The position numbers and the translations under genes were made by a program. This document shows positions 12,628 through 35,275 of a stretch of 35,275 bases of DNA, in pieces (within the stretch, counting starts at the first letter, position 1; each line of letters opens with the position of its first letter). Origin of the DNA: Leptolyngbya sp. CCY15150 (GTDB lineage Bacteria > Cyanobacteriota > Cyanobacteriia > RECH01); NCBI RefSeq assembly GCF_016888135.1, contig NZ_JACSWB010000214.1, forward strand, positions 1-35,275, in the 5' to 3' direction. The notes below the pieces were generated by a model. That model worked only from the letters and a program-made list of their open reading frames with translations. It did no database searches and was not told the origin of the DNA.

Positions 12628-12654
12628 CCCCTTCTCCCACGAGGGGAGAAGGGG
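12628..12654. repeat. Perfect 11-bp hairpin after the ALDH gene
   Basis: CCCCTTCTCCC (12628-12638) and GGGAGAAGGGG (12644-12654) pair perfectly around a 5-nt loop, 85 nt after the mmsA stop. There is no T-tract. A C-rich CCCCCTCAACCCCCAACC lead-in precedes it. It may act as a 3'-end barrier or be a dispersed palindromic repeat. Confidence 0.55.
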
Positions 12655-26549: not shown

Positions 26550-26593
26550 GACAGGTATCTATAGATATATCTCTACAGCGATAGATACCTGTC
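26550..26593. repeat. 13-bp perfect inverted repeat
   Basis: GACAGGTATCTAT (26550-26562) and ATAGATACCTGTC (26581-26593) are perfect arms around an 18-nt AT-rich loop. It starts 54 nt after the sugar dehydrogenase stop. No T-run follows, so it may be an operator, a transposon-end relic or an mRNA 3' stabiliser. Confidence 0.7.
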
Positions 26594-28366: not shown

Positions 28367-30183
28367 TGTCCTCGCCATAGACGCAGGGTGCGATCTTGGC
28401 TGGCGCTGATCAGCCGTCCGTCGGGATGAAAGGCGATCGCCTCGATGGCGGCGGTGTGGTCGGTGAGGGTGGCTAGGAGTTGGCCGGTGATCACCGACCA
28501 CAGTTTGATGGTGCTATCTTGACTGCCGGTGGCTAAGATCTGGGCATCGGCACTCAGCGCTAGGGTACGAATGGGCAGTAGATGTCCGGATAGGGCATGG
28601 TACAGTCCGCCGGTATTCAGATGTCGCAGACGAATGCTCATGTCCCAACTGCCGGTGACTACCGTTTGCTGCTCCGGCTCTTCCGGGTCGGGGGAGGGGA
28701 TCAGGGCGATGGCGCTCACGGATCCACCATGTTTGGCCAACTGGCGCAGGCAGATGCGCAGGTTTAGGTTCCAAACCCGTAGGTTGCCATCCGCATCGCC
28801 GCTTACCATCACCGGGGCCGTGGGGCTGACGGCTAGAGACTCCACCGGGGCGCTATGTCCCTCAAAGATATGCAGCAGTTTTCCGTGGCGATCCCACAGC
28901 CGCAGATGGCGATCGCGGCCAGCGCTGATCAGATGGCTTTCCTGGGTAAATGCCAGGGCGGTAACCAGTTCACCTTGCTCTAGCAACACTTGGGGTGTCG
29001 GACGATCTAGCTCCCATAGCTTGAGGGTGCGATCGTAGCCACTGCTGGCCACCATGGCCGTCGCGGGGGAGTAGGCGAGGGCGGCGATGCTGTAGGCATG
29101 ACCCACCCAGGTACGTTCCAGCTCCGTTCCCTGCCAAAGGGCGATCGCTCCCTGTTGATCGCCGGTGAGCATCTGCCCCATAGGCAGCAGCGCCAAGCGG
29201 GTGATCGGGTGCTCGACGGTCACGGTCGTCTCACAGACCCAGGATAGATCTGGGGGCTGGGTGTCGGGCAGGGGCAGGGGAGGCTGGCTAGCGGGAATGA
29301 TCAGGGTGGAGGATGAGCCTGGACAGTGGAGTAAGACATCCTTGAGGGCGATCTCGGCGCTGGCGTAGCGTTCGGTTAAATTACGGCATACGAGGCGATC
29401 GAGGATCTGCGCTAAGTCGTCCGTGATCGGGCCGGACACGCTACGCCACAGCCAACTGCCGTCCCGGAAATTGAATAATTCAAAGGGCGACAGTCCCGTG
29501 AGTAAATGCAGGCAGGTGGTGCCTAAGCTATAGAGATCGCTGGCAAAGGTGACCTGGCCTGCCAGTTGCTCGGGGGCAATATATTCAGCGCTGCCGATCA
29601 TGGTGCCGGGTTTGGCGAGGGTAGACTGGGTGGCGATCTTGGCGGATCCAAAGTCTACGAGGGTAAGATAGCCTAGGTCAAACCGACCGTCGCGGCGGAT
29701 CAGGTTGGTGGGCTTCACGTCGCGATGGATCAGCCGTTGACTGTGCAGATACTTGAGCAACAGCAGTCCTTCTTGGAGCACCGTCCAGATTTTATCTTCG
29801 CCAAAGGCTCCGCTGGCCTGGAGTTCTTGCCCAAGATTGGGGCCAGGAATGTAGTCTTGCACCAGGTAATGGTGCTGGTCGCGTTCAAAGTAGGCCAAGA
29901 CATTAGGCAACTGCGCATGTTTGAACAGCGGTTCGATGCGGGCAATCTGGTAACGAAAGGCTTCTCCATCGCCCTGCTGCTCAAATTCTTTGATCACACA
30001 GCGATTGTGGGTGAGACGGCGTTGATCGGTGGCCAAGAAGGTGCGGCTCGATCCACCGCCGCCGATGGGCTGTACGGCTGCGTAGCGATCGCCCAACCGC
30101 ACTCGCGATCCGCAATGCACACAAAAATGATCGCCCTGGGGGGTGCTAGGGGATGGACAGGTTGGATGCAAACAATAGCTCAT
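28363..30183 (-). CDS. Ser/Thr protein kinase with C-terminal WD40 repeats (second of pair)
   Basis: A 606-residue protein. The start at 30183 is chosen because its ATG overlaps the upstream kinase's TGA as ATGA; a longer start at 30222 lies inside that gene. The N-terminus has a zinc-ribbon-like pair, CLHPTC and CVHC. In the kinase domain the Gly loop is GGGGSS, VAIK lysine is Lys65, HRDVKPTN has Asp155, and DFG is at 177-179; all catalytic residues are present. About 330-606 is a beta-propeller of six or seven WD40 units (ASSGYDRTLKLW, ATGSQDSTIKLW, SASQDRTLRLW). Such proteins are common in filamentous cyanobacteria; substrates are rarely known. Confidence 0.92.
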   Translation of the reverse strand: MSYCLHPTCPSPSTPQGDHFCVHCGSRVRLGDRYAAVQPIGGGGSSRTFLATDQRRLTHNRCVIKEFEQQGDGEAFRYQIARIEPLFKHAQLPNVLAYFERDQHHYLVQDYIPGPNLGQELQASGAFGEDKIWTVLQEGLLLLKYLHSQRLIHRDVKPTNLIRRDGRFDLGYLTLVDFGSAKIATQSTLAKPGTMIGSAEYIAPEQLAGQVTFASDLYSLGTTCLHLLTGLSPFELFNFRDGSWLWRSVSGPITDDLAQILDRLVCRNLTERYASAEIALKDVLLHCPGSSSTLIIPASQPPLPLPDTQPPDLSWVCETTVTVEHPITRLALLPMGQMLTGDQQGAIALWQGTELERTWVGHAYSIAALAYSPATAMVASSGYDRTLKLWELDRPTPQVLLEQGELVTALAFTQESHLISAGRDRHLRLWDRHGKLLHIFEGHSAPVESLAVSPTAPVMVSGDADGNLRVWNLNLRICLRQLAKHGGSVSAIALIPSPDPEEPEQQTVVTGSWDMSIRLRHLNTGGLYHALSGHLLPIRTLALSADAQILATGSQDSTIKLWSVITGQLLATLTDHTAAIEAIAFHPDGRLISASQDRTLRLWRGH

Positions 30184-34060: not shown

Positions 34061-35222
34061 TTATTCATGTTTAGTGTCTTTTGCAGATCTTTGTTTCCTA
34101 ATTTGATCCCACCGAAATTCTCTCCAGACCACATCCCAATCAGAAGTTTTTTCGTGGCATAAAATTTTTGGAAAAAAGTCTATACATGTATGATCATAAT
34201 AACTTTTTTCGTATATGTTTCGGTTGCTTAGGTAGTGTTTCAATGCTAGTGGGAATATAAAACTACTTAAAAGCAAATGCTCCTTCAAAGTCCATATGGA
34301 TGCATAGGACTCATGACTGTGCCCGTGAGCTAGGCTTCCTCTTTTTATGACGATATCTCTCATCCAAACCTCTTGTATGGATGTATCTTTTTGAAGCTTC
34401 TGCTTTTTATCTTGTTGCCGTTGTTGCCGTTGTTGCCATTGTTGCCCCCTATAACAATCAATGATGTCCATATCAGATTGCGTGCCGAGTAATTGAGTGA
34501 ACCTATTAGCTAAATCTTCGTCTGCGCTGCCCTTAGATCTCTTTTGGCTATTGGATTTTAGCAATCGCTCAAAGGCGCTCACTGAGAAGACAAGTTCTAT
34601 TGCCTCAGATGTATATGGGCCATCCGAGTTGGATAAATTAAAACTTATTATCCCCTGAAAAATACTTTCCCACTTATTTAATCGAGATTGAGCAGAAATT
34701 AAAGAATGCAAGAAGTCCTCGTTCAATCTTGTCCTTAAATGACGTACATGGCTAGGCATTACTTCTCGAAATTTATGTTTTGATATGATGTTCTCATTGC
34801 AACCATCTCTTCGTCTAGTGATTGTTTTATAAGCGACCGAGTTACTAAATCTTTTTAGCTGAAAGTTGTCTCTGTTGCAATAATCCTGGCTACCCGAGAA
34901 AAATGTTCTACCACTCAATCCACAAAAAGTTATTAACTCTATCCATAAAGCAAGCTTTTCCTCTAATTTTTTACTGATCTTATCAATCAATCTGGGCATT
35001 GATTGATAAGATCGTGATGCTCTGGACATTTCTGGTGTCACTTTCATAAAAATGATTTAGGTAGTCTTCCAGTGCAGATACGGTTTCCTGATCATATTCT
35101 GTCGGTCTACTTCCTTTGTCGAAAGGTAGCAGGCTGAAATCATCTAAATGAACAGCTTCAGAAATCCTGAACCAAGGGAAAAAAACTAGGGCGGCAAAAC
35201 TAGCTGGAGAAAGAGGAGACAA
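34061..35222 (-). pseudogene. HEPN-like (Apea-type) protein gene split by a frameshift
   Basis: Two overlapping minus-strand frames join into one protein. The upstream part starts at a TTG (35222; an in-frame TAG lies four codons before it) and runs LVFFPWFRISEAVHLDDFSLLPF to SITILSINAQID, then TGA (34985-34983). The downstream frame continues naturally as DKISKKLEEKLALWIELITFC to a stop at 34063-34061. Removing one TGAT from ATTGATTGATAAG restores one frame. The downstream part has R-G-S-L-A-H (in VIKRGSLAHGHSHES), which fits the HEPN Rx4-6H RNase motif. Family assignment is tentative. The region is AT-rich, lacks HIP1 sites and has a QQRQQRQQ tract, suggesting acquisition. An ATG at 35047 could still express the last 328 residues. 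Confidence 0.6.
34976..35013. repeat. Perfect 16-bp inverted repeat at the frameshift site
   Basis: GATCTTATCAATCAAT (34976-34991), loop CTGGGC, and ATTGATTGATAAGATC (34998-35013). The 4-nt unit that breaks the HEPN-like reading frame is part of one arm, so the arms match perfectly only because of that insertion. Confidence 0.85.
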
Positions 35223-35275
35223 TTGGCTAGGCTAGGCACAGAGGCGAGAACAGGGTGAGGCAATCAAGATGGTCA

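Follow-up and report, generated by a model that had tools for sequence, protein, structure and literature searches.

A gene split between two overlapping frames

The window analysed here is one entire contig (C214, 35,275 bases) of the 304-contig draft genome of the cyanobacterium Leptolyngbya sp. CCY15150. Close to the contig end, on the minus strand, ORF 34061-35047 (328 amino acids) and ORF 34983-35222 (79 amino acids) overlap in different frames. The two frames carry the fragments of a single broken gene: a 5' fragment (34983-35185; FFPWFRISEAV...) that ends at a TGA stop (34983-34985), and a 3' fragment (34061-34984) in the frame of ORF 34061-35047. A family profile was built from five intact homologues, leaving out the window sequence. 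Model positions 6-73 of this profile were matched by the upstream frame and positions 76-357 by the downstream one; the passage from one frame into the next falls within the 3' arm (in gene sense) of a perfect hairpin located at 34976-35013. Over the profile match of the downstream frame, no additional stop was found 3' of the hairpin.

The intact homologues from Pseudanabaena, Cupriavidus and Microvirga cross the break point in a single frame, and the two window fragments match successive parts of these proteins. Judged from these alignments, the frameshift is a real departure from the family, since the homologues read through and the fragments follow one another along them. The original prediction of a gene broken at the hairpin was thus confirmed, and a check for homologues having the shifted frame found none, the intact ones being unshifted. 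The downstream frame could alternatively be read as a separate, intact gene of 328 amino acids starting at the ATG at 35047, as ORF 34061-35047 is indeed open throughout. However, its first ~23 residues are without homology, whereas the other frame over the identical bases does show homology, and no homologue starting at the 35047 position was found. The upstream frame (FFPW...) is clearly homologous to the family (E = 8e-14 in a three-sequence search), refuting a start at 35047 without upstream similarity. With a homologous upstream frame and a break in the 3' arm, a separate gene from 35047 is scarcely credible, and we regard this reading as wrong.

A rare gene family with a conserved R-x4-H motif

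The gene is rare. None of the 95 nearest other genomes contained it, and nearly all of the sampled phylum is without it. A first scan of genome contigs revealed no relative; a second contig scan, with alignment, detected Pseudanabaena and two Microvirga sequences. The closer homologue is that of Pseudanabaena sp. M085S1, and distant ones are carried by Cupriavidus metallidurans pMOL28 and by Microvirga plasmids, the nearest homologue being 37-43% identical in protein. Phage records gave no match to the gene. A candidate relative in genome G289 was rejected because the ORF in question resembles TolC-like outer-membrane efflux proteins. The Microvirga makkahensis homologue (L041, 2902-4192) is also apparently split in two frames, elsewhere in the gene. 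At the Pseudanabaena locus (L039, 2055-2890), two small genes come before the intact homologue, and we take them to resemble a PrlF/YhaV-type toxin-antitoxin pair.

An R-x4-H motif is kept in all aligned homologues (RGSLAH, RGDLAH, RGQSAH, RSSRAH) and lies in a C-terminal region predicted to be helical; in the broken gene it is found as RGSLAH inside the 3' fragment. HEPN RNases have R-x4-H as their core motif (PMC3710099). By this motif the family resembles RNases of the HEPN superfamily (ApeA-type, PrrC/RloC, HepT and others), but the residue following the arginine is G or S here, and not N, D or H as in usual HEPN proteins. Searches of Pfam, NCBIfam and PADLOC gave no match to a HEPN or other family profile. 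Comparison of our profile with solved structures produced a chance-level match only (2op5, E 0.54), and the AlphaFold model of the Pseudanabaena homologue, with a mean pLDDT of 41.5, was too poor for a fold search. The earlier description of the gene as HEPN-like was therefore upheld as to the motif and not as to a match with a described HEPN family profile. We consider "HEPN-like" a fair label for a putative RNase, drawn solely from the conserved R-x4-H. A short repeat in the broken gene (TTGCCGTTGTTGCCGTTGTTGCC, 34416-34450) codes for QQRQQ; the aligned homologues are without it.

A perfect hairpin at the frame break

In gene sense, the 5' arm (34998-35013, minus strand) and the 3' arm (34976-34991, minus strand) of the hairpin are complementary at 16 of 16 bp around a loop of 6 nt (34992-34997), as had been claimed. 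This is the longest perfect inverted repeat anywhere in the window. It exceeds what shuffled sequence produced: 60 Markov-shuffled versions of the window gave no arm above 13 bp, and 400 shuffled versions of just the gene gave none above 12 bp, a length reached in a single one of the 400. The folding of the hairpin DNA gave a z value of -7 to -8 on either strand relative to dinucleotide shuffles. No further exact copy of the 16-nt arm was detected across the genome, and a mobile (dispersed) palindromic repeat was rejected on the basis of this single copy. Other perfect inverted repeats of the window, at 26550-26593, 28455-28502 and 12628-12654, have arms of 13, 12 and 11 bp, respectively.

We compared the arms with the homologues. 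The peptide I-L-S-I-N, encoded by the 5' arm, aligns with L-L-S-I-N of the intact Pseudanabaena homologue; the residues LSIN are thus conserved with respect to this one homologue. The 3' arm, in which the frame breaks, falls in an unconserved stretch and has no counterpart in the homologues, and no inverted repeat of at least 7 bp is present in the aligned Pseudanabaena stretch. On this evidence the 5' arm appears to be the old one and probably served as the template, and the 3' arm would be its copy.

The interval between conserved anchors on both sides of the break measures 58 nt in the window, 57 nt in Pseudanabaena and Cupriavidus and 60 nt in Microvirga, that is, a net change of +1 nt relative to the two closest-spaced homologues and of -2 relative to Microvirga. 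In terms of aligned sequence, this spacing shows a change of net +1 modulo 3 only. The break had been ascribed to an extra TGAT; the shift of frame is borne out, and an insertion of these four bases is not established, the net length being +1 or -2 versus the homologues. An insertion of +4 would require an ancestor one codon shorter, a possibility that the variability of this stretch allows. The statement that the arms would be imperfect without TGAT proved partly right, as a single ATTGAT unit in the 3' arm leaves perfect arms of 12 bp separated by a spacer of 10 nt. A close intact allele was found in 0 of the 95 nearest other genomes, and congeners do not have the gene beside ruvB.

Origin of the frameshift

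The allele resembles quasipalindrome template-switch mutations (Ripley model), such as those of the E. coli thyA hotspot, the lacZ QP reporters and the yeast lys2 QP events, in that the frameshift lies inside a perfect-armed inverted repeat and one arm resembles an inverse copy of the other. Arm homogenisation with frameshift by this route has been documented in E. coli (PMC7202029) and in yeast (PMC3820800, PMC8604942). Unlike these E. coli and yeast systems, which are reversion assays, the window allele is a natural fossil in which the correction itself was unobserved. After copying the 5' arm and the loop, the growing strand would have paired back on itself through a few complementary bases and used the 5' arm as the template for the 3' arm (intrastrand template switch). 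Its return to the template out of register would have left a frameshift in a perfect 16-bp inverted repeat.

Plain replication slippage might have produced the same allele by duplicating 4 nt beside a 12-bp inverted repeat that was already there, in which case the perfect palindrome is a by-product. The doubled ATTGATTGAT is equally a perfect tandem duplication, and the two processes thus lead to an identical product. However, slippage requires both a pre-existing perfect 12-bp repeat, seen in 1 of 400 gene shuffles, and a duplication occurring exactly there, and the presumed ancestral unit provides a direct repeat of just 2 nt. We therefore consider slippage possible, although unlikely. An assembly or sequencing error at the hairpin of this 304-contig draft appears improbable: hairpins can disturb sequencing, but a 16/16 perfect arm would be unusual as an error, and the gene carries an independent lesion (see below), so that its decay is expected anyway. 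A quasipalindrome template switch is thus our best reading and the most likely origin of the frameshift. Of the mechanism put forward in the original prediction, the frameshift at a perfected palindrome was retained and the template switch stands as the best-supported mechanism, although by its product it is not separable from a slippage of 4 nt.

A second lesion caused by an insertion sequence

Positions 35186-35275, the last of the contig, form the left end of an insertion sequence (IS; CTAGGGCGGCAAAACTAGCTGGAGA...) that is multicopy and runs off the contig. Nine left ends were found in the genome, at the ends of contigs C214, C221, C162, C144, C270, C279, C278, C255 and C202, together with nine right (opposite) ends, at the ends of contigs C137, C272, C165, C155, C132, C123, C276, C174 and C143. 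Left and right ends share a 25-bp terminal repeat, the multicopy element having terminal inverted repeats, and the IS body is missing from the assembly. Every one of the IS ends that were read adjoins an A or T run of 7-9. In the gene, the target is an A7 tract (35179-35185; T7 on the gene strand) that lies in codons 5-7 and immediately precedes the FFPW codons. A7/T7 is present on both presumed sides of the IS and, the target being a homopolymer, its duplication is ambiguous. A literature search for homopolymer-targeting cyanobacterial IS returned nothing useful.

The transposase located beside similar ends in another cyanobacterium (G041) resembles proteins labelled ISNCY or transposase, the matches so labelled being located on Rhodovastum and Nostoc plasmids. 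The element is therefore likened to the ISNCY-family IS of cyanobacteria and alphaproteobacteria, its type deriving from similar ends in relatives whereas its own transposase is absent from the assembly. Relatives of the IS with an ISNCY-like transposase are present in other cyanobacteria (L054).

We then considered which opposite end could hold the start of the gene. A T tract in the required orientation is present at three of them only (C276, C174 and C143). The T runs of C276 and C174 come after terminator-like hairpins, and C143 alone gives an ATG in phase. On this contig, ATG AGT GAA GTT C followed by T7 reads in the required phase as MSEV-LFF, before the CTAG stop of the IS itself; the N-terminus of the Pseudanabaena homologue is MSEILFFPW. 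The phase, the T tract and the homology to the Pseudanabaena start indicate that the end of contig C143 is probably the other side of the IS. The element (with an ISNCY-like transposase in relatives) would thus have inserted into the T7 tract at codons 5-7, and the frame, if read from the probable native start, would give MSEVLFF and then stop at the CTAG of the IS. The hairpin frameshift lies ~170 nt beyond this lesion. The gene is broken twice, by the IS in codons 5-7 and by the frameshift at the hairpin.

Consequences for the role of the hairpin

It had been suggested that the hairpin might act as a reversible switch, its gain or loss of bases toggling a toxic RNase on and off. Quasipalindrome changes can in principle revert, and the family carries the R-x4-H motif. 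However, with the IS in codons 5-7 the gene stays blocked regardless of the hairpin, so that reversion of the latter would not restore it, and the Pseudanabaena homologue has no hairpin at the break position. The switch is therefore unsupported, and we hold it to be very improbable. The same small likelihood is given to a contingency switch in which the hairpin would be a mutational hotspot, repeatedly and reversibly shifting the RNase-like gene, with the IS present in part of the population.

Overlapping frames with a strong stem at their junction could also point to a programmed ribosomal frameshift, stimulated by the stem-loop, that would join the two frames. Such an event would require a +1 step, but the codon preceding the stop (GAT-TGA) offers no slippery re-pairing, and the hairpin encloses the junction rather than coming after it. 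Moreover, the start codon has been removed by the IS and the homologues are unshifted. We give this explanation almost no credence.

The reading that we favour, and consider reasonably probable, is that of a recently inactivated accessory gene with two independent lesions, the IS in codons 5-7 and a probable template-switch frameshift in the hairpin. Both lesions are probably recent, since no further stop follows the hairpin. Together they leave no complete protein, and in this copy the hairpin therefore serves no regulatory function: what we see is an ordinary pseudogene, young and decaying, with a textbook type of mutation, and not an on/off switch. It illustrates, from nature, the inactivation of a gene beside a perfected palindrome and indicates that a defence-like accessory gene is being lost in this cyanobacterium, leaving the general picture unchanged. 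It also teaches that the rest of a gene should be inspected before a switch is proposed from a hairpin at a frame break.

Synteny at ruvB and in the tRNA-Ser/ftsH region was compared with congener contigs, two of which end early. On C143, the stretch at positions 100-600 (L029), between the presumed start and tRNA-Ser (602-690), does not align with the tRNA-Ser/ftsH contigs of congeners before ~413-469. This unaligned stretch is possibly part of a tRNA-associated insertion.
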